Source: a virus. Taken from it: a stretch of 28,385 nucleotides of DNA. The DNA lies in the IMG/VR virus record IMGVR_UViG_3300010885_014814, positions 1 through 28,385 of that record. One strand, 5' to 3'. Below, one piece after another: positions 2,870-28,007 of this stretch. Positions within the stretch are counted from its first letter, which is position 1, and each line of letters opens with the position of its first letter. The notes under the pieces were generated by a model. It was given only the letters and a program-made list of their open reading frames with translations, did no database searches and was not told where the DNA came from. The position numbers and the translations under genes were made by a program.

Positions 2870-3415
2870 TTATACTCTACTAAAGGTATATCCACGATGA
2901 CGAGTTTGTCCTTTTTTATTCAAACACTTACAAATCGCACTAGTATCCCCACTAATATAATCTGCACATTCCTTTATTGATTCAAATTTTTTATTTAATT
3001 CATTTATCATAACTGATTTTGATGGTATATGATTTCCTTTACCTTTTTTTGTATTTGATATTTTTTTTCCTCTTTTTTTTCTGTCTTCAACCGACAAATT
3101 ATCCCAAAATTTTTGTACTCCTGCAATATGATTATTATTTCCTTTTTTCATACGAGGGGGATTCTCTCCACCATCAGTTTTATTATAAAGAATACCTGTT
3201 CCCAAATCCTTTCTTCCATATTTTTTTATATACATTTTTTCCATTTGCATCGCATCTTCCTCTGTAAGATTATCTGCAACTTTTATTCTTCTTTCTTTTA
3301 GGGGAAGACTTATTCCAGGATGAGCTTTACTATCTATCCTACCATTGCACCCTTTACCAACATAGTAAGGAGTACCATCTTCTCGGTTATAAAAGTAGCA
3401 ATAGTATTTTTTCAT
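2870..3415 (-). CDS. free-standing GIY-YIG homing endonuclease
   Basis: This 181-residue protein has the layout of a GIY-YIG nuclease with a modular DNA-binding tail. YYCYFYN (4-10) and TPYYVGKG (15-22) form the GIY/YIG strands. R26 of CNGR is the likely catalytic arginine, E59 the likely metal-binding glutamate, and GTGILYNKTDGGE (72-84) the closing block. A basic Lys/Asn/Gly-rich segment at 88-132 resembles NUMOD3-type DNA-binding motifs. The end (about 143-180: KFESIKECADYIS, then ICKCLN and RGYTFSRV) resembles an IENR1/NUMOD1 helix-turn-helix. Such enzymes nick or cut an allele lacking the gene and copy themselves in by repair. It sits between gp13 and gp14 with gaps of 3 and 2 bases, so it is a free-standing insertion, not intron-borne. 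It appears intact. Confidence 0.87.
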   Translation of the reverse strand: MKKYYCYFYNREDGTPYYVGKGCNGRIDSKAHPGISLPLKERRIKVADNLTEEDAMQMEKMYIKKYGRKDLGTGILYNKTDGGENPPRMKKGNNNHIAGVQKFWDNLSVEDRKKRGKKISNTKKGKGNHIPSKSVMINELNKKFESIKECADYISGDTSAICKCLNKKGQTRHRGYTFSRV

Positions 3416-4655: not shown

Positions 4656-7600
4656 TTATGCTAAAGCGATGATTCTCAAATTTCTGAATAATGGAACAAC
4701 TGCTTGATTTGTGGTTGTTCCAATTAATTTTATTCTGAATGAATTGAATGAAGTAAGTTTATCAATAGTAAATTTGTACTCATTAAACAGGGATAATGGT
4801 GGATTAAATACATAAGAGTCTACTTTAGCTATTTTTCTATCCGGTAATCCATCATTTAATGCGCTATCAATTACTATTCCATTATTATCTAAATTATTAT
4901 ATCCAGGGAATGGTACAAATATTGCCTCCTTGGCACTTGCTCCAGGATTAATGGAATAGAATGCTCTTACATCACTGTAATTATTAATATATGCATCAAC
5001 AAGTAATTGTATGGATGTTGCTGGATTTTCTAGATTAATTGTTTTGGTAGCATAATAAAATGCATTTGGGTCATCAATAATACTGTTAACCCTAGGGTCA
5101 TTTGCATAATCTGTAATAGGATTATTTATTCGGTTTGAAGTAAATACAACTTTACAGTGCTGTAAATCAATAGCTGGTGATAATTTAGAATCAGAAGAAG
5201 ATAAATTCATATTAACCGTAAATGATTTATTTGCGGGTAAACTACTAAGATAAGTAGATTGATTAATATCGGATGCAACAATTCTTGGGGAATCAAAGTA
5301 ATTTGGATTATTTAATGTAATATCCTGGAATCCTTTATCCACAAATTCAGATTCTGTCCCATTTAGACTTCTTCCGCTAATTGTTCTGGCTGAACAATTA
5401 ATTATTGTACCAGTAGGAGTTATAGTTTTGATTGATGGTGTAATTAGCTCAAATGGAATATTATAAGTTGATTTAGCTAATGTTCCGCCGGTATTGGTAG
5501 TAGAATTAAAATGAAGTATTGGAAATCCAGAGGACGTTGTACTTCTATTTACTCCATTTGTTGAAGTATCCACCTTCACGTGATAATAGTCAAGATTTGT
5601 TTGTTCTATAACATCAATAACGTCACTCATTGCGTGTGATGTATTGATTCTTCTTAGTGATACTCCATTAAGTTCATATTTATATACTAAATCACCTGAA
5701 GCATATGAGAATGGTTTTGTATCATCTATACCTCGTGTTATACTAGTTAATGTATTTCCGGAAATTCCAGTATATTTAATGATTTCATCACCTATTAATA
5801 CATATCCTGGATTAGTAGTAGCAACACCAACATTTTCAAATGTACCAAAATTAGTTGAACTTGTAATATTAATAGACCCACTGTCTCCCGAACCATAATT
5901 GGTGGTGAGTGTGGTTGGTAATGTATCCGAAGTTACATTACCAACATTAATCAAATTAGAAGCCGCTGTTAAATTCGTATTAACGTGCATTCCGTGATTC
6001 TTTTGATATACTTTAAAATGTAATCCATCACTTAATGTGGTAATGGGGGATGATGGAACAACAGTTGCTCCATTTAAATTAGTAGTAGTTCCAGAATTAT
6101 TGACGTATTTAATATAATTAGTTATTCCAGTTAAAAATTCTCCCTGTACATTATCAACAATTAATTGATTCTGTCCAGTTAAAGTAGCGACACTTAATTT
6201 CATTCCCAATCCTAGGGTATTTGACCCAATTTGAATTGGTGATAATACATCTCCAATAGTATATCCTTGTCCACCAGCTAATATAGTTGCCCCAACAGCA
6301 ACTCCATTAGCTACTGTTATATTTGCTGTAGCATTTATACCACTACCAATATAGCTAGTTAATGCAACTCCGGTAAATGTATAACTCCCCGAAGATGGGG
6401 TATATCCAACTCCAGCATTTGTTATAGTTAAAGTATTGGTAGCACTTCCACCATACCCAACTAATTTCCCAGTTGCGTTTGATCCATTTTGGAGAATGGT
6501 ATTACCAACAGTTAGTCCAGAATCATTAACTGTTGTTCCAATTCCAATTTTTACATTATTTGATATAGTGATTAATGAATCCTTCGCTAATAGCTCTAAA
6601 TCTGATGGTAATGATGGATTAAACAATTGAACGGATCCATTAGGAACAAAGTTTGCTCTATAAATCTCAAATGTTAAATCATCATATTGGCTGGGTGTCC
6701 AAGTAGATGCATTTTGTGAAGTAAATAATGAACCAAGTAATCTTTGGGTACTTACTGGAACTTTTCCACCATTTTGACTGTTAACATTAAATTCACCCAA
6801 TCTAGATATCCATACATTGTATTCGGATGAGTCTGAAATAACTACCAAAGCATACTCTTTTTGCCCCTGTAAATACACTGGTGCATCAAAGGTGAAAGTG
6901 GTTGGAATACTAGCATCATCGGATAAATTAATTTTATCTGGTGGTAATATTACTTGAGAATACGCAAGTATTTTTCTACTTGGAGTTCCAAGTTCTACTT
7001 CTCTTATTTGTAGAGTTACTGGAAGAATTGGGTCTTTGGTGTTAAAATATAAATCAACTTTTGTGACAAATATTCCAGTATTTTCATCTACAGCAAAACT
7101 TTGTGCCAATGGGTCTTGATATACTCCAGTTAAACTAGATGAAGTTCCTGATGTGAATGTAGTGCTAGCGGTATCTGACCCATCTAACGTTCTATGTTGT
7201 GGTGTTTGATCTATGTGGTCAACAGTAGCATTTCTTAGAGTTAATGTAGTTTCTTGGGTATTATCTATATCTCCCTGTGAGAAAAATATTTCCTCGGCGG
7301 AAGTTGTTACTATCCCTGGGATTTTTGAATCTATTGAACTACTTGTTAATCTTAATCTATTTCTTCCAGTTTCAAATATTGGATTAGCCGTATTTTTACT
7401 ATCAGGAACTAGGAAGGAACCAATTATTGTTCCTAAACTATCGGTAATTAATCTATTATTAGTAATAGTTGCTTCAGCACCACTAGTTTGTCCCTTAAGT
7501 ATCATTCCAGTTTTAATACATCCAGTGAGTGTAGGTAAACTTTCGGAAGATAGGGATGCGGTATCAACATTTAATATAGTAGAAGTTGCTGAATATGCTG

Positions 7601-12215: not shown

Positions 12216-12854
12216 TTAGAACTGCAAGATGATTTTTATATCTTCTTTCTGAGAAGTGGATCTAGTTATAGATGGTCTATTATCAACATAAATTATGTTG
12301 CCAGAATATTTTTTAACTTCTGGTTGTGCAACACCTTGATTAAAATTTTGACCAAGATAATATGTTCTACTATTTATTACAGTAGATATACCAGTAAATC
12401 CAGTATCAATTCCAAGATTTATCGTACCACCGTGAATGATTAAATTCCCACTAGTTGTTGGTGATGCGGTAAATCTATTTAAATTAAATCCATAAATTGG
12501 AGATGAATTTAATGAATTATCTGTATTGAATCCAACAACGGATCTATCTTGCCAATATTTTAATACCCCAGTATTTTGGTCATATGATATTACTCTACCA
12601 ACTGCAGTTGAACCAATTCCAATTGTTTGTGTGACAAATGTATCTGCAGTAAATATTGCTCCATTATATCCAGTTCCACTCAATTTAAGTGCATAAACAG
12701 CACTTGCTTTATCGGGAGTTAAATTTTCACTTGACCCATATGATTTTGGATTTTCAATTATACCAACTCTGGCTATTTGATTACCAATTATAAAATCTGG
12801 ATTTTCTGTATCATTTTCAATTCTTGAATATATTAGTACATTATATGCACCCAA
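12216..12854 (-). CDS. 8: gp8 baseplate wedge protein, C-terminal fragment
   Basis: This 212-codon frame is the C-terminal part of gp8, separated from the N-terminal part only by one in-frame TAA at 12855-12857. Its beginning (GAYNVLIYSRIEN, then GNQIARVGIIENPKSYG) lines up with the T4 gp8 segment RQISIITNPLEAKA. Its end (IIYVDNRPSITRSTSQKEDI, then KIILQF) lines up with the T4 C-terminus MIYMENRPPI...QTEEINILFTF. The middle contains marine-type insertions. The only start at the left border is the TTG directly after the TAA, with no well-placed Shine-Dalgarno, so independent initiation would be weak. It could be made by reinitiation or readthrough, or the TAA could be a sequence error. It ends 6 bases before the DUF4815 gene. 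Confidence 0.8.
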   Translation of the reverse strand: MGAYNVLIYSRIENDTENPDFIIGNQIARVGIIENPKSYGSSENLTPDKASAVYALKLSGTGYNGAIFTADTFVTQTIGIGSTAVGRVISYDQNTGVLKYWQDRSVVGFNTDNSLNSSPIYGFNLNRFTASPTTSGNLIIHGGTINLGIDTGFTGISTVINSRTYYLGQNFNQGVAQPEVKKYSGNIIYVDNRPSITRSTSQKEDIKIILQF

Positions 12855-12857
12855 TTA
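12855..12857 (-). other. in-frame TAA interrupting gp8
   Basis: On the minus strand the local reading is ...GGA TAT GAC ATT TAT CGT TAA TTG GGT GCA TAT AAT.... Codons on both sides stay in one frame and both sides match gp8, so one base substitution explains the interruption. A glutamine or glutamate codon (CAA or GAA) is the simplest ancestor. TAA also ends most intact genes here, so it is not reassigned throughout the genome. Confidence 0.85.
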
Positions 12858-13775
12858 ACGATAAATGTCATATCCATGCCCACCGTCTGGTGGAATTATT
12901 ACATCAAAAGATGGTTGTATGGACCCAGTTGGTACACCACCAGCGACCAAATCTAGAGTACCATAAGTGTATTGAGAACCACCATTAGAAACAACAACGG
13001 ATTCTATTTTTGAATCACCATTGATTACAACAGTTGCTTCCGCCCCATATCCATCACCTCTGATGGGGACTTTTGTGTATATTTTATTTGGTAAACCTAT
13101 TCCAATTCCTCTATTTGTTATTGTGATTATTTTTAATTGTCCACTAGATGTTGCATTATTTCTAATGGATACACTATCAATAGATGATTCCCAATTTTTT
13201 GGTACTGGAATATAATTGGTGGAATCAAATTTAATAACTTCACTTGGTTTAATTGTATAGAGATATTTCCAAATATACCCATCTCCACTTGTACCCGCCT
13301 CTCTTGGTTCTAAATCTGTAAATGTTGGCTCATCAAGAGATGGTCTTCCAGAAATATTATCAGGACTTATTCCATTATGTAGACAAATGTATACTCTATA
13401 GTCACTATTAAGAATATAATAATTGGCAGAATATAAATTTGTTGAGCCAGATGGGTTAGCTCCTTTATTTGGATCAACACTTATATCATGACGATACATA
13501 TCGTATGTTGTGCCAGAAGTCCACCTCAATTTTTTAATAACTTGACTAACATCATTGGAATTGATTTTCTTCAATCCAATCATTGTATCCCAATAATTGT
13601 TTTCTTCATCAAAATTATCTTTTGGTGAAGGTGGAGACACATCCCAGTCGGATTGGAAACTAGTGGCGTTTGGTAATCCAACAAAAGTATAGTATGAATT
13701 GTTAGTGGATGATACTCCAGAAACAAAGTTCTTGGCGTTTAGTATACGCAATTGGTCAGTTATAATAGCAGGCAT
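12855..13775 (-). CDS. 8: gp8 baseplate wedge protein, N-terminal fragment
   Basis: This 306-residue frame is the N-terminal part of a gp8-like baseplate wedge subunit. The T4-like features are YWDTMIGLKKI (61-71, compare MWTHMMGTVKV in T4), YRVYICLHNG (126-135, compare LVYRCLD) and GDGYIWKYLYTIKPSEVIKF (164-183, compare GDGYVWEYLFEIPPD). NYIPVPKNWE (187-196, compare EYIVVPWPEE) follows. Residues 210-290 hold the Gly-Tyr repeat type also seen in gp14 and gp7. Translation stops at TAA after PDGGHGYDIYR, but the same frame continues with LGAYNVLIYSR, which is plainly the rest of gp8. Read through, the protein would be about 519 residues (T4 gp8 is 334). The ATG is 19 bases after the gp7 stop, with a weak ribosome binding site. 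Confidence 0.85.
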   Translation of the reverse strand: MPAIITDQLRILNAKNFVSGVSSTNNSYYTFVGLPNATSFQSDWDVSPPSPKDNFDEENNYWDTMIGLKKINSNDVSQVIKKLRWTSGTTYDMYRHDISVDPNKGANPSGSTNLYSANYYILNSDYRVYICLHNGISPDNISGRPSLDEPTFTDLEPREAGTSGDGYIWKYLYTIKPSEVIKFDSTNYIPVPKNWESSIDSVSIRNNATSSGQLKIITITNRGIGIGLPNKIYTKVPIRGDGYGAEATVVINGDSKIESVVVSNGGSQYTYGTLDLVAGGVPTGSIQPSFDVIIPPDGGHGYDIYR

Positions 13776-13794: not shown

Positions 13795-16700
13795 TTAGGA
13801 TAGATAGTTTAGATATTTTAGTGGATTGATTCTAGTTACTACCGAAGAGGTAGTTAATCCAATAATTCCGTTTCTAGTGTACGCATTAAATTCTTGTGGT
13901 ATGGATCTATCCCCCAATACTATCTTACCCCAAGAAAATTCACCAAAATAGGAACTATATCCAGTTCCAGTCAATGAATTATAATTAGAAACACTAACAA
14001 TTACTCTAGATACATGAGTTATTCCAATTCCAGTAACACTTGTTTGAGCAATAGATACGTCAGCAACTTCATATACATTATCTAGATATTGTGTACTAAT
14101 ACCAAGAATTGATGAATTCTGATATAACGAAGTTACTCCATTTCCAATATTTGTATTAAATGTTGAGAAATAGTATCCAGTTTGTATTCCACTTATAGTT
14201 GTCACTCCAGTTATAACTGAATTTCTTAAATCCGAATTCATAGGAATATATAAATCAAATATTATTCCAGTAGAAGCTACACCAACAGAAGTAGTCTTAA
14301 CACCAACAATAATACCATAGTCCCCAGAATAGGATACATTTTTAATTTCTTCATATACTAATGATGGAGATTCAATCAATACAGATGGTGAATTTGTGGG
14401 GGTATATCCGATTCCTGGATTTATAATACTAATGCTAGTAACAATTCCGGATGTTATGGCTGATTGTGCAGATGCCATATAAGTGGAACCAATTCCTATG
14501 GGGTAACTAATCGTTACTGATGGAATAGATGCGTATCCACTACCACCATTTGATATATTAATTGAAGAAATTGTTCCGGCTATTGATACAATAGCTGTTG
14601 CTGCTGCACCAATTCTCTCGTCTTGTGATATTAATACAATTGATTTTTGTAATTGGTCTGTTGAATTCTCATTTAAACTATCAAATAGTGGTCTTGCATT
14701 TTGCACGAACATCACATCAGACCCAATACCAACTGATTGAATCATATAAGTCGTTGGATTAATTAATGGTTCATATTTTACTCTTGATTTTCCAACAACT
14801 TTTCCATTAATAATTTTATCTACTAGTTGTCTACACCAATTAATTGGTCTAACTATTAGTTCATCATTAGATAATCCTGGTCCCGGATATGGATTTGTTT
14901 GTATTAAATCTGTTGCATTTATTCTTGTTACTGCTCTTTCATCTTGAAGTAAAGAATTATTTTGACCAAGTTCTGGTGAATTTCTTAATTGTACATCGTC
15001 CCCAATTTTTATAGTTTCTAATATATCATTATAGATGACATCTATTTCTCCGCTACCCTTATAAAACAATAATTTAGATAAATCACCTGCTTTTGGTGAT
15101 TCATTAAATGTTATTGTGCTACCACCATCAAATAAATATGCATCTCCGGGAATTTGTAATACATTATTAATAAACACAAATAGTGTTGCTTGGATATCTA
15201 TATTTGATCCTTTTTTAGCACGAATAGTTATTGGCGATTCGTTTAGTGATATTCCAAATGTCTTAGCTGTACCATCAAATTGTGGATCTAATCTATCCAA
15301 TACTTGTAATTGCCCTATAGACCACGCGGAGAAACTAGTGTTATATGTTTTATCTATAAGTATCTGAAATTCTTCAAATGGTTTTGAAGAATCAGTAGGT
15401 ATACCAGACAATCCTCCAAAATTTACAGTAAGTATTTCATTTGGTTGATAACCATACCCAAAATTATTAATTGTTAGGTCAATTATACTAGAACCACTAC
15501 CAACAACAATATCAATATTTGCTTCAGTTCCTACACCAACTGAAGAAGATGTGCTATAAATTAGTGGGATATTGGAGTAACTAAATGGCGCATCAAAAAA
15601 TACAGTTGGTGGATTTGTGGTTGTGTATCCAGTTCCTGGATTTGTTATAGCAACACTAACAATGTGTCCATTACTAATTGCTGCTGTTCCTATAAATTGT
15701 ATAGTAGCCGCGATATCATCATCAGTTCTTACTCCAACATTTACGTGAGTTTGAATTCCCGCCCTATATCCAGCTCCACTATTACCAATACTTATTGATG
15801 ATATTGTACCCGCAATGGAAACAATCGCAGTTCCTCCAGCAGATACTAGTGGTTGATATCCAAATCCACTAGAAGATCCAACAGAAACTATAATTCCACC
15901 AACAGGAAGACTAGATGTATTGATATCATAACCAACAGATGAAGCTGCTCCTATGAATGATATTGTACTTATTCCAGAATTTTCTGAAATAGTATAATTT
16001 TCTAATGCACTCTGTACTCCTTGTGGTTGTTGAAATACCCCACCAACCAAAACTATTGCATTATCTGTTGAAAACCCAGTAACATTTTGTTGGCTAGATG
16101 TTAGAGTAAAATCACTATCCATCCCAGTAAATTCATTTGAAAAATCATCAAATACATAATTTTTAGAATATGTTTCACTTACGCCATTTACATCTCCAGA
16201 TCGTAGGAATACTCTTCCGTGGAAGGTATAACTAGTAGAAATTCCAATCCAATCTCTTTCATTTGGTGGATTTGTTGTTGAGCTTATTGGAGTTAGTCCA
16301 GTTGGTGCCTCAACAAAATTAATAATATTATTTACGATATTATAATTTCCTTGATACTTTCTAACCACTGAATTAGATGGATGTGATGAGATTCCCGTTC
16401 CCATCCAATGTCTATCAACAAGTAATACATTAGTACTACCGAATCCAACAGTTTGAATCTTCATCAATTCATCATCTATTTTTATTAAATCACCACCAAA
16501 GAATGAAGTTATTTGATTAATTTTTATTGTTGAGTCATATTCATTTGAATAATCTGCAAGTGTTGTGGTCATTGCGGTTGATACAATAGGTGATTGAATT
16601 ATATTGTTGAGTGATATTAGAGTTTTAGCATTTTGATTAGTTGCTGTAAATATGTGTACAGATCCAATTCCAACTGAAGTAATGTCTAAAGGCTTTGGAA

Positions 16701-19700
16701 TAAATTTAAGTGCATCCTCAGCGGATCCAGCTAATTTTATTTTCGTATCATCAATTTTTATAGCATATACATTTGTTGGTAATTTATCAATAATACCAAC
16801 TCCAACAAAGCTAGTTGATGCTATACCAATTGCCTGAGTATTTCCAATTCCAGAATTGTTATATGCTAATTTTTCTCCAGTTACATAATAATGATATGGA
16901 ATTAAAATTGTATCATCTATAGTGTTAATAATAGAAGAATCTGATCCATCTATTGTTCGTTCAAATATTTTATTCAATCTATGTGTTAAATCAAATTCTC
17001 TAAGAATTGTAGTTTCTGTACCATCATAATCACCATATCCACTTACGATATTGGAATTACCCAAATCAATAATATCTGTTGATGTACTTTCTCCATATAG
17101 AGATAGTGCTAATTGAAATACTCTAACCTCAATATTCACATTAGCAATTGGAGTAAACGTTAATTGAGTTACCCCAGAAGAAATAATGGCTCCAATAGTA
17201 CCAAGATTACTATTTGTTTCTAAATTCGCAAATTCTGAAAATGATACTGTAGTATCATCAATCAGGACAACTTCAGATAATTGATATTCATTATTTGTGG
17301 TATCTTCAACACTTATTAAATAATATGCTCCTCTATATGTTCCATTTTCATATTCTGCTATAACATTTTCAGTTGGAGAAACGGATGATGGAATAGAGGT
17401 GTAACTTGAGTTTAGTACCCCAGTGTTCATTGGTATAGTTCCAATTCCAGTTGCTAATGTATTTGCTATAGATACTCTTACCGTATTTGCAGTTAGTGCT
17501 ACCCCAGCACTAGGAATAAAATCAATATTAATATTTGATCCAGAATAATAGGTTGAATATGTTCCTAATCCACTACTAGAGTATGAATTTAGTGAGTGAT
17601 TGGTTAATTGTCCATATTCAAGAACATTTATATTTGTTCCATCGTGAACCAAATTTAATTCACTAAACTCATATATATTTCCACTTCCAGTAATTTCAAC
17701 CAATATTTTAGATGACCTATATGTTGATGCAATACCAACAATAGTAGTTGTTGTTCCTATAGAAATATTTGTATTTGTTGTCTGGATATCAATAATATCA
17801 CCTAATGATGTAGTTCCAATTCCAGCTGTTGTGTCTTTCAAGTCAAATGATATATAACTTAAATTATAATCATTAATACTATATTTTGTCGGGTAAAATA
17901 ATAATTGTCCATTAGAACCAGCTATACTAAAATCATATGAACCAAGATCGGTAAATGTCTCTACTCTACCATATTGATTCATATATCCAAAAGAACCATC
18001 GTGTAATAGAGAAACGATAAGAAACTGTCTTTCGTGTGTGTATCTATTATCTTGTATAAAAGTAAAATATTTTTTAGTTCTTGCTGATGTTATAACAAAT
18101 TCATCTACTACACTATATCTGGTGAGTCTTGGTTCACTATTAAATTGGGGACTAATATCATCTATAATAAGAACTCTATTTCCAATAGATTCAAAATAAT
18201 CTGTTAATATTCTATTTTCTAGAATAATCTCATTAGATATTGTTCTGGTGCCAATTTGTATTACTTTTTCTCTGGCGAGGTCAAAATCATATTCACAATT
18301 TAGGCTACCATCACCAACAATATCCACAACAATTTCAATATTACTACTATCTCTACTATTATTTTGATTATTACTAGATACACTCTCTATAACCAAATCA
18401 CTGAATTTTAAGAATCCAGCAGCGTGGTTTAGTGAATTTACTGCGTCATTCCAAGTATCAAATGGTACTTTTGATTTTAATGCATATGAGAAGTGTTGAT
18501 AATAATGATTATCTGGAAGTCTTTGTGTATTGTCGTTTAAGAATCCAGTATTTCTACTCCAGCCTTTTTTAACTATGGAGAATGAATTCAATAGAATTTC
18601 AGCATCAAATTTAATTTTTGATTTTACTATACCTTGAGTATTGGAGCTTTGGCCAATAACAAGATTACCAACATCAAATGTTTTATTTGTTGATACTTTA
18701 AGATAATCAATTTTATTATTCCAACTCTCAACTACTCCAGAGTTATTTTCATATTTTACAATTTCTCCAGAATAGAAATTATTCTTCTTTAATTCAATAT
18801 CAAATATTGGAAATTGTTTTTCTGGAATAGCTCTACCATTTGATTTTAATAATTGTATTATTCCTGGAGTTTCACCAGAAGTTAAGAAATTTTCTAAACT
18901 ATATGTTATATTTGATTTAGATCCACCTAGAGAAGTGGATACTCCAATTAATTCAAATAATTGATAATTATAATCTTCAGAATTATAACCAGTGCCAGTT
19001 GAATTTACACCGACATTAACATTTTCAATTAATATATTATCTCCAATCTCAAATGGGAAATCTTGTGGATTACTGAAATCTTCAGACAAATATAATGTAG
19101 TATGTTTTGTTGTATCATTATATGATATTGAGTGAATACCAACACCATTTTGATTGTTTATTGGTATAATTCTTGGAATTGTATTATAAATTCCATATGT
19201 ATTTTTCAGAATTTTTACTTCTGTTGCACCGAGAACGAATTGTAAATCAACATCGTCTATTATTTTGTTTGTGTATGCATCTATTACTATCAATCCAGGT
19301 GGAGAAATATAATTTTTACCACCAGAAGAAATTCCAATTTTAGAGAATGATGATAATGGGTCTACATTTAATATTTCTGGTAGATTAGCTACTGGACGTA
19401 ATGTAGAATCTGTAGGATAATTGAATCCAATATCTTGTATTTTATTATCTAATATTTTACCAATAATTTCTTCCTTTACCTTAAGAATTGCCCCAGAACC
19501 ATATTGAGAACTTACGCTACTGATTCCTGGGATGGTTTTATATTCAATTCCGCTATTAGTGATGTTAATTTTTGATATTGAACCTGTGGCCGTTTCGGAT
19601 GTAGTTTGATATGTTATTATTGCATTTGTATTATCATATGTTGTTGATTCTGGTGATTCAAAAATTGTAAAAGTAAATGTTGTTGTACCAATACCAGAAA

Positions 19701-22700
19701 TTGAATGGTTTCCGGTATAAACACTATTAATGACATTTATTTGATTGTGGTTTTTTACGTCTAAATCATTGACAATACCAAGTTTTGTATCTGTATTTAA
19801 ATCTATATTCGTTGGTGTGAATTTATAGTATAAAATATTTGGAATTTGGTCACTTAATTGAATTGAAACATTGGCAGTTGAATCTATTCCTATTTTACCA
19901 GATTTAATTACTTCAAATTTACTTGTCGTTTTAGATGAATATAATTTTGTATTAAATTCTGAATCAATATAAAAATCAAAATCAAATGCGGTATATTTGA
20001 TTGCTCCATTAACAAATGATAAAGTTGAATCAGATAAATCAAATTTTAAAGTATTATTTTTTCTAATATTTACTATTGGATTTATTTTTGAAATAGTTCC
20101 ACTTGATGCTGTTGTTATATTGATGGTTGTTGGATAATCACCATCAAGTTGTGATTTTTCAGATACTAATTTTATTCTATTATTATCATAAAATATAACA
20201 TAATATATCTTTTCGTTTTCAAGTCCACCCGAGGAAGAAGACGAAGTATGTATTACTTTATCTCCGGTTATGAGACCGTGATTTACTATCTGAATAGTAT
20301 TATTTGTGATGTCAACATCAGAAGCAATGAAGCTTTTAGAATCAAATATTATTCTCCGATTATAGTCATCATACTTAACAGATACTGTAGTTATATTAAA
20401 CGGTTTAATTTCCATATCAATGGAATCAAACACAGAAAGCCCGTGAGTGGCTGCTGTGGAGACCGTGACGTGGTTCTTATTAACTTGACCAACAACTACA
20501 TTGGGATTTGATGTTTTAAGACTATGATATACTCCAGTACCATTGTCGTGGAAATATAATATCCCAGCTGTTATGCCAATTCCAACATATGTTCCAGTAG
20601 TTCCTAATCCAACTTTTATTGTGGATATTCCTAAGAAATCTTTAGATATAGCGGTAGCATATACTATATCACCCAAATAAAATGTTGATATTCCAGTATT
20701 GGAGACTAATAATGAATTACCACCATTATTTGAATATAGAAGTTCTTCTCCAGTTTTAATATTATGATTTGGTAAATATATTGATTGTGTGGGAACAAAT
20801 ATATTTGTTGGTCCAACCCCAGGATTAGTAAAGGTAATTGTTATTCCAATACCAATTCCAGAAGTTGTTCCTACTCCAACAGATTCAGATGGGTCAAAAT
20901 AAATTTCTTTATTTATTGGGAAATTTCTGGTTGTATTATACCCAACATTAAATCTAAATTTTCTTGGATTTTCATATAAAATAGTATATGATGAATGCGC
21001 CAATCCTATGGTGGAATTCTGTTCTCTTACTACTCTAATTCTAGATGTTTTTTGGTCAATATTGAGAACTTTCACATCCTCATCTTCAATTTGTAATATA
21101 TCATTTTCACGAATAAATGGATATTCCAATGCACCAGAAATATAAAAATATGTAACTATTCCTGTTACTGGAGTACTACCAATTCCTAGGGACAATACAA
21201 AATTATCATTGCGAATTCCTAGTTTATAATTTCCATTTAATTTTGATACAGATGTACTTAATCCAGATATTGAGATTAAATCAAAATTACTTAATTCGTG
21301 TGGAGATGAGGAAAAACCAATAAATTGATTAGATGTGGTATCTGGAGTTAATTCAATATTGAATATAGATGTTGATGCTGTACTTACTTGAGAAACAGTT
21401 TTCCCTAATATTTTAGATACTTTAGCTGCGGCACCAGTTCCACCGGTAGTAGAATTATCAAAGATGATACGATCATTTATAACATAGTTAGTTCCACCAG
21501 TTATTATACCAATATTTTGAATACCATCTGTGGATGTTGCTATGATATCAATATATTGTTTATCTGAATTAATTATATAATTATATCCACTACTATCATT
21601 GTTGATATTATATGGTGTAGTATTTCTAAACCAGGATGTATTTTGTAAATTTGTATCTATTTGATTGGAAGTTTTTTTAAAATTAAACTCATTTGGTTTG
21701 GATTTATATGTATTTCCAACCACATATGGATATACTGGTCTTCTATAATGATTAAATGTTCCTCCACTATCGTTGGAATTTGGGTTTATTGTATTGAAAT
21801 ATGCATATGTCCCATTTGGAAATTCTGGAGTTAAACAAAATCTCCCATTATGTTCATCTAGGTCTCCAGTTCCTTTAAATTCGTAATCATTAATAAAAAA
21901 TCCTTGTGGAAATGCGGAAACACTAGGCCGATTATCTTTATTTACTAATTCATATCCAGATTTCATTAATCTAGTGAACCCACCAGAATTGGAAGTATAT
22001 CCATATGGTCCATAAATTGGATTTCCATCATATGCCCATCCAATAATTGGTGAATGTTTGAAGGAATTTAGAGGGATATTTTCCTCATTATTTTCGACTT
22101 TTAAGTCTGGAACACCATATAAAGTTACATTATCTTGATTTTTTACGTAAATATTTTTTCTTAATATTCTTGGTGGATATAGGTGAAAATATTGTAATTC
22201 ATCCGCATTTACAGATGATTTTTCAATAATACCATCATCATTTTCAATAATATTTAAATTTTTATGAAATAAATCTACATTCCACGTCTGTATTTGTGTA
22301 TTAACATTACATCCGACACCAGCAGAAACCACTTTAATTTCAGTATCATTACCGAAACCAATTCCACCATTAACAACATTAATGGATATTAATTTCCCAT
22401 TTTGAATAATTGGAGTTAATTTATGATAATTTCCGGATCCGGTGACTATAATATTTGGTGGAGAGTTATAATTTGAACCGGAGTTTCTAATAAGAATTTC
22501 GGAAATTTTTCCATTATTGATAATTGGAGTAATTTCAGCATCACTACCACTAATAAATGATATTTCGGGATTGCGAACATAATTTAAAATTTCTGATGAC
22601 CCATAACCAACGCCAAAATTTGTAACATCAATAGAATCTATTCCACCTCTAAAGATTGGTTGTATTTTAGCAGAAAAGTCCTGTCCAGTTCTGGTAGAAA

Positions 22701-25695
22701 CACCAATTGCTCCAGATATATTAACAATTATATTTGGATAATTGAAATAATGTGTTCCAGAACCAAAGGAGGTTATATCAATCGGTTCATTAATAGTTGT
22801 ATTATATAATGAGAATGTATCATTATCAATTTTATTGACATAATACTGTGTAGTAGTAGATAATCCACCAATAACACTTCCAGTTGATGAATATACTACA
22901 GTTTCTCCAGTATTATATCCGTGATTTTTTATAGTAAATTTATCTGATGATGTATTAATTCCTACAGATTGCGCTATTCTTTTTTTATTCTGATAATTTT
23001 CACCAGAATTAGTAACTACGATATTAGATATTATTTGCTTCTTATTTGTTGCTTTTATATTATGTATTCCAGAGCCATATGTTTGTAGGCTTACTGTATT
23101 AATGCCAGTAATTGAATCTGATTTAGTATTATGTAAAGTAATTCTAAATGAATCAATTATATAAACATAATAATTCGCATCTGTTGTTAGTCCAGATATT
23201 CCATTTTGATTATCAGTTTGATATACTACACTCTCATTGTCTCTAAATTTATGATAAGTGGAGAATCCGATAGTGTTTGTAACTAAATTAACACTTGTAT
23301 ATGTTGATTCTGCATTAAAAGGTACAATATGATCTATTTTAGTCATATTTACTTCTGCCTTTGCACCAATACCATTTCCGCCAGTAATGGTAATAATTGG
23401 AGTATGTGTATAATCAAAACCAGAATCAATAATATTAATTCTTTTCAATTGACCAATTACAGCACAGGTTCCAGTTGCCCCAGTACCAATTGGATCTGAA
23501 ATATTGATTAGTGGTGGATTAATTACATCATAATCATATCCAGGTGATGTGATTTGAATATCATCTATTCCACCATAAGATACAAAATCCGTAGATTTAT
23601 AATTAAGTATCTCCACACCATTAATTAAAATCCCAACAGGTCCCGGAACAGTATTAAAAGTGCCACTAAGAGTATTTGGTGGAAGAATTTCTCTTACTAT
23701 ATTTTGGGCATTTACTGTTCTATTATGAAAATCAAAGTATGTTATTTCATCATTTTCTATTTTTCCAGAGACAGTTATAAATTCTTTTATTAAAAGATTA
23801 TATTTACTTGTTGCTAATTTAATTGTTGTTGCATCTACTCTGTATATGAAGTATAATCCACTTAATAAATTAGAAGAATTATAAATCTTTTGATTATAGT
23901 ATATTGAATCTCCAGTATAAAAACCATGGTCTTTGGATGTACTTAATGTAATTAATTGATTATCATAATCTCCAGATAATATAATGAATTTGGAGTATGC
24001 ATTTAATGGTTGATCTGGATAATTTGGTAATGATGAAGATGTAATTAGAACATCATTAGTAAATTTTACATATGAATTCTGAATATTGGCATTGTATTTC
24101 TCTAAATTAGAATATATTGATTTTACTTTTAGTATGTTTCTCTCTATTACATAATATACAGTTAAATTTAATGGCGATGCAGTTTTTATAGTGAAAGACT
24201 TATTTGTTATTATAGATTCTACGATACCATTTATTGTAGATGCATCACTACCAGTTAATGTTACACTATCTCCAATACGAAATAAAATATTATCATATGT
24301 TATTAAATTATATTTTAATTCAGATAAATCAGATACACTAAATGTTCTGACATTATAATATACCTTAGTATTATAAATTAGACTATTTGTTATTACATCG
24401 TCTGCTAATTTACCCAATGAACGAATTCGTATAGTATCGTTCTTAGAATATAGATATGTATCCTGATATGTTTTTAACTTCTCAAGAACTGAATTGATTC
24501 TTATTGTTATTAAACTTGTTGAATTGTCCTCATATCCATAAGCAAATACATTTAATCTAATCTCTTCAGTATCAAAAATTGTACTGGTAATTCCATCAAC
24601 ATTATAAAATTGATTTATTGATTTATCGGTGTAAGTTAAAATTTGTCCATCTAATGTAATTAATTCACCGGAATTTGGAAATCCAATAGTTGAATCTACA
24701 TCTAAAGTAGTGAAACCACTAAAAGCGGAGTTTAATAATTTTGTTTTGGGGTGTACTGAAAAATCGGATAATATACTTCCACTAACATTAATATCCTTAT
24801 TATAATCATAATCTAAACTTAATTTATAATAAGTTTTTCCTTCTGTATAAATTTTTTCTACATTTGTTACTGAACCTCTAGCGGATGGTATATTATAATT
24901 TTCATTGACATCTTGAAATATAGTTTTATTAATAAGATTTAATGGATTTCCACTTATTTCCTCAACTACAATATCTTTTGTTATTCTATATTCCGCATCT
25001 GATGGTCTGAAGAGATTATCTTTTGGTTTTATAATTTCTACTTCTTCACCATATAATGCTTTAAATAAAATCTTAAATGAATTATCTGTTCCTTTAGAAT
25101 TATAGAAATCTTTTGATTGGGTAATGAATAATTGTTGATTTAGATTATTATATAATGGTCTGTCATCAAAACCAGGAATAAGTTGTTTTTTTATTTTCTT
25201 TAGAAATTCCTTAAGAAATAGAATAGATAAATTGTATATTAATGTTCCTGAGGTATGGTCAGACGCAACTGAACTAGTGAAAACTAACTCATCTGGTGTA
25301 TTGGGACCATAGAGAGAAGTTACTCCACTGAATCCTCTTACACATTCGTTTAATGTTAATCCAGTTTTACTGACATATGTAATTATCTCATCATCAATTC
25401 TTAATAATCCATAGTTTTGTGGTAATGAATTAACAAAGTTTGTGTCTGATAATGTAATTGAAGTTTCAAACGAATCTAAATCATTCAATAATACACTAGA
25501 TTCTACAACTTCATTTATTGTTTCTAGTTTTAGATATTTGTCTATATTTTGAATAAGATCCGCCGCACTCCCTTGAAATTCCTGGGAAACGTAGTATTGT
25601 TTTAAAAATTCAACAACCAGTGGAAATTCTTCTCTTACAAATATTGGAAGTTGATTCTCTACAATATTTTGTATTTTTACTCTATTTTCAATCAT
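13795..25695 (-). CDS. 7: giant gp7-like baseplate wedge protein with YHYH domain
   Basis: This 3966-residue protein occupies the gp7 position between gp6 and gp8. The key homology is near the N-terminus: SKDFYNSKGTDNSFKILFKA (194-213), continuing LYGEEVEI (214-221), matches T4 gp7 YDFYSTKGIEASYKFLFKVLYNEEVEIE. A helical head precedes it (REEFPLVVEFLKQYY, 21-35), interrupted at about 80-160 by an IDDEIITYV...CVRG module. Beyond about 260 come many beta-rich repeats: NHG-x-x-TG-E/D units followed by YYV...D, and Gly-Tyr units ending in a Pro-beta strand. A YHYH-like domain lies at about 1215-1300 (IIGWAYDGNPIYGPYGY ... GDLDEHNGRFCLTPEFPNGT). T4 gp7 has about 1030 residues. It probably forms the wedge scaffold plus a large peripheral extension. 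A GATAGGA sequence lies just before the ATG, which is 2 bases after the gp6 C-terminal stop. Confidence 0.85.
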   Translation of the reverse strand: MIENRVKIQNIVENQLPIFVREEFPLVVEFLKQYYVSQEFQGSAADLIQNIDKYLKLETINEVVESSVLLNDLDSFETSITLSDTNFVNSLPQNYGLLRIDDEIITYVSKTGLTLNECVRGFSGVTSLYGPNTPDELVFTSSVASDHTSGTLIYNLSILFLKEFLKKIKKQLIPGFDDRPLYNNLNQQLFITQSKDFYNSKGTDNSFKILFKALYGEEVEIIKPKDNLFRPSDAEYRITKDIVVEEISGNPLNLINKTIFQDVNENYNIPSARGSVTNVEKIYTEGKTYYKLSLDYDYNKDINVSGSILSDFSVHPKTKLLNSAFSGFTTLDVDSTIGFPNSGELITLDGQILTYTDKSINQFYNVDGITSTIFDTEEIRLNVFAYGYEDNSTSLITIRINSVLEKLKTYQDTYLYSKNDTIRIRSLGKLADDVITNSLIYNTKVYYNVRTFSVSDLSELKYNLITYDNILFRIGDSVTLTGSDASTINGIVESIITNKSFTIKTASPLNLTVYYVIERNILKVKSIYSNLEKYNANIQNSYVKFTNDVLITSSSLPNYPDQPLNAYSKFIILSGDYDNQLITLSTSKDHGFYTGDSIYYNQKIYNSSNLLSGLYFIYRVDATTIKLATSKYNLLIKEFITVSGKIENDEITYFDFHNRTVNAQNIVREILPPNTLSGTFNTVPGPVGILINGVEILNYKSTDFVSYGGIDDIQITSPGYDYDVINPPLINISDPIGTGATGTCAVIGQLKRINIIDSGFDYTHTPIITITGGNGIGAKAEVNMTKIDHIVPFNAESTYTSVNLVTNTIGFSTYHKFRDNESVVYQTDNQNGISGLTTDANYYVYIIDSFRITLHNTKSDSITGINTVSLQTYGSGIHNIKATNKKQIISNIVVTNSGENYQNKKRIAQSVGINTSSDKFTIKNHGYNTGETVVYSSTGSVIGGLSTTTQYYVNKIDNDTFSLYNTTINEPIDITSFGSGTHYFNYPNIIVNISGAIGVSTRTGQDFSAKIQPIFRGGIDSIDVTNFGVGYGSSEILNYVRNPEISFISGSDAEITPIINNGKISEILIRNSGSNYNSPPNIIVTGSGNYHKLTPIIQNGKLISINVVNGGIGFGNDTEIKVVSAGVGCNVNTQIQTWNVDLFHKNLNIIENDDGIIEKSSVNADELQYFHLYPPRILRKNIYVKNQDNVTLYGVPDLKVENNEENIPLNSFKHSPIIGWAYDGNPIYGPYGYTSNSGGFTRLMKSGYELVNKDNRPSVSAFPQGFFINDYEFKGTGDLDEHNGRFCLTPEFPNGTYAYFNTINPNSNDSGGTFNHYRRPVYPYVVGNTYKSKPNEFNFKKTSNQIDTNLQNTSWFRNTTPYNINNDSSGYNYIINSDKQYIDIIATSTDGIQNIGIITGGTNYVINDRIIFDNSTTGGTGAAAKVSKILGKTVSQVSTASTSIFNIELTPDTTSNQFIGFSSSPHELSNFDLISISGLSTSVSKLNGNYKLGIRNDNFVLSLGIGSTPVTGIVTYFYISGALEYPFIRENDILQIEDEDVKVLNIDQKTSRIRVVREQNSTIGLAHSSYTILYENPRKFRFNVGYNTTRNFPINKEIYFDPSESVGVGTTSGIGIGITITFTNPGVGPTNIFVPTQSIYLPNHNIKTGEELLYSNNGGNSLLVSNTGISTFYLGDIVYATAISKDFLGISTIKVGLGTTGTYVGIGITAGILYFHDNGTGVYHSLKTSNPNVVVGQVNKNHVTVSTAATHGLSVFDSIDMEIKPFNITTVSVKYDDYNRRIIFDSKSFIASDVDITNNTIQIVNHGLITGDKVIHTSSSSSGGLENEKIYYVIFYDNNRIKLVSEKSQLDGDYPTTINITTASSGTISKINPIVNIRKNNTLKFDLSDSTLSFVNGAIKYTAFDFDFYIDSEFNTKLYSSKTTSKFEVIKSGKIGIDSTANVSIQLSDQIPNILYYKFTPTNIDLNTDTKLGIVNDLDVKNHNQINVINSVYTGNHSISGIGTTTFTFTIFESPESTTYDNTNAIITYQTTSETATGSISKINITNSGIEYKTIPGISSVSSQYGSGAILKVKEEIIGKILDNKIQDIGFNYPTDSTLRPVANLPEILNVDPLSSFSKIGISSGGKNYISPPGLIVIDAYTNKIIDDVDLQFVLGATEVKILKNTYGIYNTIPRIIPINNQNGVGIHSISYNDTTKHTTLYLSEDFSNPQDFPFEIGDNILIENVNVGVNSTGTGYNSEDYNYQLFELIGVSTSLGGSKSNITYSLENFLTSGETPGIIQLLKSNGRAIPEKQFPIFDIELKKNNFYSGEIVKYENNSGVVESWNNKIDYLKVSTNKTFDVGNLVIGQSSNTQGIVKSKIKFDAEILLNSFSIVKKGWSRNTGFLNDNTQRLPDNHYYQHFSYALKSKVPFDTWNDAVNSLNHAAGFLKFSDLVIESVSSNNQNNSRDSSNIEIVVDIVGDGSLNCEYDFDLAREKVIQIGTRTISNEIILENRILTDYFESIGNRVLIIDDISPQFNSEPRLTRYSVVDEFVITSARTKKYFTFIQDNRYTHERQFLIVSLLHDGSFGYMNQYGRVETFTDLGSYDFSIAGSNGQLLFYPTKYSINDYNLSYISFDLKDTTAGIGTTSLGDIIDIQTTNTNISIGTTTTIVGIASTYRSSKILVEITGSGNIYEFSELNLVHDGTNINVLEYGQLTNHSLNSYSSSGLGTYSTYYSGSNINIDFIPSAGVALTANTVRVSIANTLATGIGTIPMNTGVLNSSYTSIPSSVSPTENVIAEYENGTYRGAYYLISVEDTTNNEYQLSEVVLIDDTTVSFSEFANLETNSNLGTIGAIISSGVTQLTFTPIANVNIEVRVFQLALSLYGESTSTDIIDLGNSNIVSGYGDYDGTETTILREFDLTHRLNKIFERTIDGSDSSIINTIDDTILIPYHYYVTGEKLAYNNSGIGNTQAIGIASTSFVGVGIIDKLPTNVYAIKIDDTKIKLAGSAEDALKFIPKPLDITSVGIGSVHIFTATNQNAKTLISLNNIIQSPIVSTAMTTTLADYSNEYDSTIKINQITSFFGGDLIKIDDELMKIQTVGFGSTNVLLVDRHWMGTGISSHPSNSVVRKYQGNYNIVNNIINFVEAPTGLTPISSTTNPPNERDWIGISTSYTFHGRVFLRSGDVNGVSETYSKNYVFDDFSNEFTGMDSDFTLTSSQQNVTGFSTDNAIVLVGGVFQQPQGVQSALENYTISENSGISTISFIGAASSVGYDINTSSLPVGGIIVSVGSSSGFGYQPLVSAGGTAIVSIAGTISSISIGNSGAGYRAGIQTHVNVGVRTDDDIAATIQFIGTAAISNGHIVSVAITNPGTGYTTTNPPTVFFDAPFSYSNIPLIYSTSSSVGVGTEANIDIVVGSGSSIIDLTINNFGYGYQPNEILTVNFGGLSGIPTDSSKPFEEFQILIDKTYNTSFSAWSIGQLQVLDRLDPQFDGTAKTFGISLNESPITIRAKKGSNIDIQATLFVFINNVLQIPGDAYLFDGGSTITFNESPKAGDLSKLLFYKGSGEIDVIYNDILETIKIGDDVQLRNSPELGQNNSLLQDERAVTRINATDLIQTNPYPGPGLSNDELIVRPINWCRQLVDKIINGKVVGKSRVKYEPLINPTTYMIQSVGIGSDVMFVQNARPLFDSLNENSTDQLQKSIVLISQDERIGAAATAIVSIAGTISSINISNGGSGYASIPSVTISYPIGIGSTYMASAQSAITSGIVTSISIINPGIGYTPTNSPSVLIESPSLVYEEIKNVSYSGDYGIIVGVKTTSVGVASTGIIFDLYIPMNSDLRNSVITGVTTISGIQTGYYFSTFNTNIGNGVTSLYQNSSILGISTQYLDNVYEVADVSIAQTSVTGIGITHVSRVIVSVSNYNSLTGTGYSSYFGEFSWGKIVLGDRSIPQEFNAYTRNGIIGLTTSSVVTRINPLKYLNYLS
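21796..22053 (-). other. YHYH-like domain within gp7
   Basis: Residues about 1215-1300 of gp7 read IIGWAYDGNPIYGPYGY, later NDYEFKGTGDLDEHNGRF and then TPEFPNGTYAYF. This is the DG-x-PIYGP-x-G ... LDE-x-NGR ... TPE-P-GTYAY pattern of YHYH domains known from secreted proteins and phage virion proteins. Function is unclear; metal or carbohydrate binding has been suspected for the family. The literal YHYH motif itself is not preserved here. Confidence 0.75.
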
Positions 25696-25697
25696 TC

Positions 25698-26204
25698 CTA
25701 TCTCACCAATACTCCGTTAGAATAGCTAGATGATACCGTATAAGATGTTCCGGAAATATCTTCACCTGATGATATACGATCTGAAATCATATTCACATCA
25801 ATATTATTCATATCTAATTGTAAATATAAATCCTGTAATCCAATTACATCATTAGATTGTGGTGTTGCGGATATTTCAATAATTGGTACACCACTATTTA
25901 CCACGGTAGAAATAATGTTTATTGGGTTCAATATCACTTCTCCTTTGGTATAATCAATAATTCCGATAGAATTACGAACTACTATTGGTTGAGTTTCGGA
26001 GTTTAATTTAAATAGAAATAGTTTTCCTGTTTTTTTATTTGTGTTTGGAATATCTGATAGATACACAACATCCGATACTCCACTGATTGTAAATCCAGAG
26101 GATTTTATATTATATCCACTCATATCTTTAATATGAAATTCATTGCCGAAACAAATTTCATAACTAGCAAATGTATTAGTTAATACACTTAAATCTCTTC
26201 TCAT
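25698..26204 (-). CDS. 6: gp6 baseplate wedge protein, C-terminal fragment
   Basis: This is the 168-residue portion of the gp6 C-terminus downstream of an in-frame TAA, counted from its first ATG. The homologous frame actually extends 34 codons further upstream to 26306 (TELNTFGSRFKYSKFIKLID, then DSDIAITSNITKIN), which is the gp6-type segment expected after the upstream fragment. The sequence then runs MRRDLSVLTNTFASYEICFG with NEFHI and ends SYSNGVLVR. Without readthrough this fragment would have to start at 26204, where no Shine-Dalgarno is visible, and would lose those 34 residues. Together with the upstream fragment it gives about 635 residues, close to T4 gp6 (660). The stop is TAG, 2 bases before the gp7 ATG. 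Confidence 0.78.
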   Translation of the reverse strand: MRRDLSVLTNTFASYEICFGNEFHIKDMSGYNIKSSGFTISGVSDVVYLSDIPNTNKKTGKLFLFKLNSETQPIVVRNSIGIIDYTKGEVILNPINIISTVVNSGVPIIEISATPQSNDVIGLQDLYLQLDMNNIDVNMISDRISSGEDISGTSYTVSSSYSNGVLVR

Positions 26205-26306
26205 ATTAATTTTAGTAATATTAGAAGTTATCGCAATATCACTATCATCTATAAGTTTAATGAATTTACTATATTTGAATCTGGATCCAAATGTATTTAA
26301 TTCTGT

Positions 26307-26309
26307 TTA
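26307..26309 (-). other. in-frame TAA interrupting gp6
   Basis: On the minus strand the reading is ...AAA TAT TCA AGA TAA ACA GAA TTA AAT ACA TTT GGA.... The frame stays open for 34 codons to the ATG at 26204 and on to the TAG at 25698, and both halves look like one gp6. A single substitution is sufficient. As in gp8, the stop follows an arginine codon. Confidence 0.85.
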
Positions 26310-27605
26310 TCTTGAATATTTTTCTATATTTGATAATGTGGATGTTTTTAATTTATTTGTAGATGAAGTTAGATTATTATTATAATAAACGCTTGAATTG
26401 ATTTCTAGATATAGATATTTTAAATCTGTAATTACTGGAACTATTCCGGCAACAGAATATTTTTTAAGATTCCTCTTTATGTTGTCTTTAATCGAATTGG
26501 AGAGGAATACTCCATTATGTGGCTTGATACTAATAAAGATTTTACCATATTGTGGAGGAATTAAATCTTCTCCACCAAATGCCGCAACAGATTCCGCTTC
26601 TGGATAAATTATAGGAATAATTGCCTCATAATCATTAGTAGTAACTGCTCTATTGCGAGAAGCAAATATCTGAGAAGAATATTTACGAATAGAATCAATT
26701 CCCTCAATACTACTTCCACCATATGAACTTTGATGTGTAGTTATTAGTGACATTCCACTAGTAATAGCAACATCATTATTATCTACTAATCTACCATTAA
26801 ATGAAAATGAGGATATTGAATTAGCATTGCTTCCATTGCTTATGGGATAAGAAACTGTAATATAATTACCTTCTTGTGGTTTCGTACCAAATACATTATC
26901 TCCAAATATTATTTCATATTTTTCGTCTGGAATCTCTTGAACAAAAAATATAGTAGAACTTGAGTTAACATCAAATAAACTATCAGCCTGGTTATATTTT
27001 ACTGATACAGATGAATATAAGTTGGCTCTAATGGATACAGAAATTAAAGAGGTATCTATTCCTATGTTTTCTAAAATAAATCGTTGATTTGGATTATTAG
27101 AACTCACAGTAAAATTTGTGGTTATGAATGTTCCTTCGTATATGTCTATATTATTAAAATATGCCAATCCATCACTATTAACTGATGCTGTGATATCAGA
27201 TGGAATAATAAATGTAAAGCTTTGATTACCAAATGTGCTAGCAGTAGTTGCCACTATACCAGCTTTTAATGTTATTGTTACTGGTTTAGTAACAAATTCT
27301 GTGGTGTCAACAAAAAAACTTATATTTGATCTAGCTGCTCTTCTGGATTGTGGAACATATCCAATATTCTTAGCAAGTGAAACTACATTCTCTCTGAGTG
27401 TTGCACTATCAATAAACACCTCATTAGCCACCATATTGGCATTATAAGATGTAATGTACGTATTATATGCCAAAGTATCAATAATTACTGATAGATTAGA
27501 TCCTGCAAAATCATAGTCAGTAAAATTTGAATTCGATCTAAGATAATCTTTTATCGAAATTTTTATTTGGTCGTAGTCTAAATTGGTGAAGTTTACGAGT
27601 GACAT
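26307..27605 (-). CDS. 6: gp6 baseplate wedge protein, N-terminal fragment
   Basis: This 432-residue frame matches the N-terminal two thirds of T4-like gp6, the wedge subunit that forms the inner baseplate ring. Family blocks are NFTNLDYDQIKISIKDYLRS (6-25), FTDYDFAGSNLSVIIDTLAY (28-47), NEVFIDSATLRENVVSLAKN (65-84), then IGYVPQSRRAA (85-95). Later blocks are YEIIFGDNVFGTKP, IRKYSSQIFASRNRAVTTND and YEAIIPIIYPEAESVAAFGG followed by PPQYGKIFISIKP. It starts directly after the gp25 TAA (no gap), consistent with coupled translation. It terminates early at an in-frame TAA after LSNIEKYSR, while the C-terminal domain continues in the same frame. In T4 gp6 the C-terminal region mediates contacts within the gp6 ring, so this fragment alone is unlikely to be fully functional. 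Confidence 0.88.
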   Translation of the reverse strand: MSLVNFTNLDYDQIKISIKDYLRSNSNFTDYDFAGSNLSVIIDTLAYNTYITSYNANMVANEVFIDSATLRENVVSLAKNIGYVPQSRRAARSNISFFVDTTEFVTKPVTITLKAGIVATTASTFGNQSFTFIIPSDITASVNSDGLAYFNNIDIYEGTFITTNFTVSSNNPNQRFILENIGIDTSLISVSIRANLYSSVSVKYNQADSLFDVNSSSTIFFVQEIPDEKYEIIFGDNVFGTKPQEGNYITVSYPISNGSNANSISSFSFNGRLVDNNDVAITSGMSLITTHQSSYGGSSIEGIDSIRKYSSQIFASRNRAVTTNDYEAIIPIIYPEAESVAAFGGEDLIPPQYGKIFISIKPHNGVFLSNSIKDNIKRNLKKYSVAGIVPVITDLKYLYLEINSSVYYNNNLTSSTNKLKTSTLSNIEKYSR

Positions 27606-28007
27606 TTAACGTGTTGATTGCAGTGCGAATGATAACTGCTGAGGCAATACATCAATACCGATGATATTATATTGGATATAAACATCAAACGTATATTCAT
27701 CATAATTAGGACTTACTTCAACTTTAATTAACTTAACACTTGGTTCATAATTATTAATAACATTTTCTATTTCATCTTTAAGAACAGAAGACGAAATATC
27801 GTCAATATTTTCAAATAATGATTGGGAGATTTTAGACCCAAGATTGCTATTAAAGAATCTTTCTCCAGTAATAGTATAAACTAAATTACGAATAGAACGG
27901 GAAATAGCGGCTTCGTTTTTTAGATCTACTAAGTCGTAATTAAGGGGATTAACCTGGAACGACATACTAATATCCTTAAAGCTTTTACTTACCCGTTCTA
28001 TAGGCAT
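27606..28007 (-). CDS. 25: baseplate wedge subunit gp25-like
   Basis: This 133-residue protein is a typical gp25, the conserved wedge component related to the TssE protein of type VI secretion; it sits in the wedge core with gp6 and gp53 and meets the tail sheath. The family blocks are ISRSIRNLVYTITGERFFNS (35-54), NLGSKISQSLFENID (55-69), IENVINNYEPSVKLIKVEVS (80-99) and YDEYTFDVYIQYNI (102-115). T4 gp25 has 132 residues. It is the first recognised wedge gene in this operon and has a TATAAATA late-promoter motif 24 bases upstream of the ATG. No strong Shine-Dalgarno is visible (GAATAA precedes the ATG). Its TAA abuts the gp6 ATG. Confidence 0.93.
   Translation of the reverse strand: MPIERVSKSFKDISMSFQVNPLNYDLVDLKNEAAISRSIRNLVYTITGERFFNSNLGSKISQSLFENIDDISSSVLKDEIENVINNYEPSVKLIKVEVSPNYDEYTFDVYIQYNIIGIDVLPQQLSFALQSTR

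Follow-up and report, generated by a model that had tools for sequence, protein, structure and literature searches.

A contig-private in-frame stop codon in the gp6 baseplate gene of a metagenomic T4-like cyanophage

Gp6 in described phages and in the window

Gp6 of phage T4 (PDB 5hx2 and 5iv5) is one chain, and the gp6 genes of Prochlorococcus phage P-TIM68 and Synechococcus phage S-SM2, both members of the Kyanoviridae, are unbroken. In P-TIM68, B23 and S-CAM9, gp6 lies within the gene order gp25-gp6-gp7. The same order is displayed by the window, the whole stretch of 28,385 bases analysed here (IMG/VR record IMGVR_UViG_3300010885_014814), whose gp6 belongs to a T4-like, Kyanoviridae-like cyanophage. 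TBLASTN analyses revealed that the gp6 product of the window is 61% identical to that of P-TIM68 over 96% of the query, and 58% identical to that of S-SM2 with a query coverage of 96-97%. In contrast to these genes and to the single chain of T4, however, gp6 of the window is interrupted at codon 433. The following features were recognized:

25698..27605, minus strand: gp6, baseplate wedge subunit, 635 codons including the premature stop, then TAG
26306..26308, minus strand: premature in-frame TAA at gp6 codon 433, with Ser in the sister contig L161 (described below) and in 155 of 158 aligned relatives

The wider order gp25-gp6-gp7-gp8 was also found, with gp25 adjoining gp6 upstream and a 3966-aa protein (13795-25695, minus strand) adjoining it downstream at the gp7 position, followed by gp8. 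Genes of comparable giant size carry the annotation baseplate wedge initiator in P-TIM68, B23 and S-CAM9.

On the minus strand, gp6 encodes 432 residues ending in ...SNIEKYSR, followed by TAA and then by TELNTFGSRFKYSK..., in the same frame throughout. An earlier note on this DNA, which named no strand, had described one in-frame TAA cutting gp6 after 432 residues and an unchanged frame beyond it, for a joined length of about 635; both observations were reproduced by the minus-strand reading, with the stop at 26306-26308 and 635 codons preceding the TAG. The N-terminal part matches positions 3-425 of PHROG 219 (baseplate wedge subunit, 598 positions; E 1.6e-150), and the part after the TAA matches positions 427-595 of the 598 (E 3.1e-37). 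Since the two halves match consecutive parts of one profile, the interruption truly exists in the sequence as given, and the two ORFs are not paired by chance. Gp6 thus belongs with PHROG 219 by its whole-length profile match, but not by a single uninterrupted frame. Among the Pfam domains, Gp6-like_1st and Gp6_C-I were detected above their cut-offs and Gp6_C-III under its own. Residues 10-495 of the intact protein of the sister contig match T4 gp6 (E 7e-39), and the stop of the window corresponds to about residue 449 of the 660 residues of T4 gp6, within the region of the C-terminal fragment 3h2t. A truncated product would be without about its last third.

Relatives, sister contigs and a second stop in gp8

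A gp6 match was present in 160 fetched loci, 158 of which span the stop site; the first 80 were picked by the N-terminal part alone and were thus not selected for being fused. The earlier note had proposed to establish by alignment the residue expected at the stop, and this residue is Ser: the column holds Ser in 155, Ala in two, Thr in one and a stop in none of the 158 aligned relatives, some of which are contigs fetched twice. With identical stretches removed, Ser was still found in 128 of 130. No stop codon occurred anywhere in the aligned gp6 of the 158 relatives, and none of the aligned relatives encodes gp6 as two genes, a situation that the earlier note had raised as one that would count against its account.

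A scan of IMG/VR identified contig IMGVR_UViG_3300009160_001135 (L161), which aligns without gaps to 7,890 bases of the window at 99.92% identity, differing by six substitutions, and has an intact gp6 of 635 aa with Ser at codon 433. An exact-pattern scan at the gp6 site, with the variable base left open, returned only L161 besides the window. A second contig, IMGVR_UViG_3300027974_000189 (L329), has 8 differences over 17,942 bases (about 99.95% identity), and contig 3300009152_001919 matches another part of the window at about 99.95%. Between them, L161 (at gp6) and L329 (at gp8) have sense codons in place of both premature stops of the window, a comparison in which only one near-identical contig spans each site and in which the sister contigs may not come from independent samples. 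The sister contigs too carry a few private differences, and at codon 167 of gp6 it is the sister contig whose residue is rarer, the window carrying the common one. Among everything found, the TAA is a one-base change confined to this contig, in a T4-like baseplate gene that is conserved and elsewhere intact, and gp6 of the phage population is most likely an ordinary single chain of about 635 residues.

The gp6 stop is accompanied by a second one in gp8, which the earlier note had missed, and by an unusual residue in gp25:

12216..13775, minus strand: gp8, a baseplate wedge subunit of 519 codons that appears as two separate ORFs, 12855-13775 and 12216-12854
12855..12857, minus strand: second premature in-frame TAA at gp8 codon 307, with Glu in L329 and in 74 of 74 relatives
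27606..28007, minus strand: gp25 baseplate wedge, with Ser at codon 90 (27738)

The codon directly after the gp8 stop is TTG, encoding a Leu that is conserved in the closest relatives shown. At gp25 codon 90, the Ser of the window stands against Arg in L161 and in 118 of 118 relatives. Other residues of the window are rare or absent elsewhere, namely Ile at codon 9 of orf75 (the same residue in 0 of 65 relatives), Phe at codon 967 of a 2517-aa gene (1 of 76) and Met at codon 3042 of the 3966-aa gene (0 of 58); at the orf75 site, a scan found no other contig matching the window's own letters. In a leave-one-out tally of deviations at near-invariant columns, the window ranked 16 of 229, and several other contigs scored as high, so that the total has no diagnostic value. 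The window is set apart by its stops rather than by the number of its deviations. A single-contig lesion in a conserved gene was also seen at about position 6770 of another metagenomic contig (L288), whose gp14 is split across two frames.

Comparison of the window with the longest sister contig of each region, covering all but positions 17943-20495, where no sister contig exists (a pattern scan around 19 kb found none), revealed 14 differences, including four synonymous, eight missense and two nonsense changes. Non-synonymous changes (10 of 14) are close to the neutral expectation of 77%, suggesting a set unfiltered by selection. The neutral expectation for nonsense changes is 4.9%, and the probability of at least two among 14 random changes is about 0.15; if the changes are regarded as unselected, no special cause thus has to be invoked for the stops. 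G:C-to-T:A transversions account for five of the 14 differences, all of them non-synonymous, against 10.4% of the opportunities (P about 0.01), an excess carried by five sites. Transversions of this class are typical of oxidative DNA damage during library preparation.

Possible origins of the gp6 stop

The stop is private to the window contig among everything found, with intact gp6 genes in the sister contig and in the relatives. A private one-letter difference, together with the same kind of blemish in gp8, most likely reflects a wrong base or a defunct copy rather than new biology, and the gp8 TAA and the Ser at an invariant Arg position of gp25 point in the same direction. Four options had been left side by side in the earlier note; base error and a dying genome are retained here, and readthrough and a true split are strongly disfavoured. 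Our preferred reading, to which we give a probability of about 0.7, is that the TAA is a consensus base error in the metagenome contig and that gp6 is intact in the population. Such a consensus or base-call error might have been fixed while the contig was assembled, assuming thin coverage. We infer a technical cause rather than a real defective allele, which ranks second.

The nonsense mutations of gp6 and gp8 might nonetheless be truly present in the genome, which would then represent a lineage that is dead or dying, or a defective form carried along by intact phages in co-infection; this is possible, if considerably less likely. One contig holds two nonsense changes as well as a departure from an invariant gp25 residue, and a defective allele could be complemented by the intact copies present in the same population; real mutations too recent for selection to have removed them would likewise fit the two nonsense changes. 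However, no stop interrupts the giant genes (the one at the gp7 position and the 2517-aa gene), which together span about 6,480 codons; elsewhere the contig agrees with its sister contigs at about 99.9%, which leaves no visible time for decay; and a majority consensus in which two essential genes are knocked out would be out of the ordinary. The stronger proposal of a real and abundant defective genome, with two or more essential baseplate genes damaged and with complementation by intact co-infecting siblings from the population, is improbable.

Full-length gp6 could also arise by programmed or suppressor-driven UAA readthrough, or by recoding of TAA as a sense codon, and the open frame on either side of the stop and the conserved downstream half would suit such a product. 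This is very unlikely, as the stop is kept in no near-identical contig and in 0 of the 158 aligned relatives, and hence lacks the conservation that a programmed signal would show. TAA is the terminator of eight genes out of 12 and, within 9,320 codons, is found only at the two lesions, indicating that it is not recoded; the window has neither many in-frame TAA codons nor an avoidance of TAA as terminator, and recoding was rejected on this terminator use and on the open giant genes. No tRNA gene was found in the window, a 28,385-base record that may be a fragment, which argues against readthrough and recoding, and a suppressor tRNA encoded in this fragment was rejected on the same search.

A genuine division of gp6 into two chains, with the second starting from the ATG at 26204, is scarcely credible: an ATG-started ORF of 168 aa does exist at 26204-25698, but gp6 is unsplit in all aligned relatives, gp6 is a single gene in the annotated Kyanoviridae examined, and an internal restart at this ATG, 34 codons downstream of the stop and with no evident ribosome-binding site, would lose the conserved ELN-FG-RFKYSK stretch. 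The phage label 'baseplate wedge subunit (x2)' was considered as a sign of a split gp6 and rejected, both records examined consisting of gp25 and an unbroken gp6.

In annotation, gp6 and gp8 of the window contig should accordingly be described as interrupted by private substitutions, and not as split genes. For genome scans that rely on single metagenomic phage contigs, sister contigs of the same population should be compared before recoding, splitting or decay is claimed; here, this comparison settles most of the question.

Other features of the window

Between gp13 and gp14 lies a homing-endonuclease-like gene of 181 aa (2870-3415, minus strand), with a weak NUMOD-like match and matches to PHROG 15526 and 314, whose C-terminal part has only one relative among the fetched loci. 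At the contig end (28317-28385), a 17-base unit, TATAATTCTCAAGACCA, is repeated in tandem about four times, and L161 ends in a longer array of a like repeat; the tandem array is probably what stops assembly at this point. Read on the minus strand, this array leads into an exact TATAAATA, the T4 late-promoter core, located upstream of orf70.
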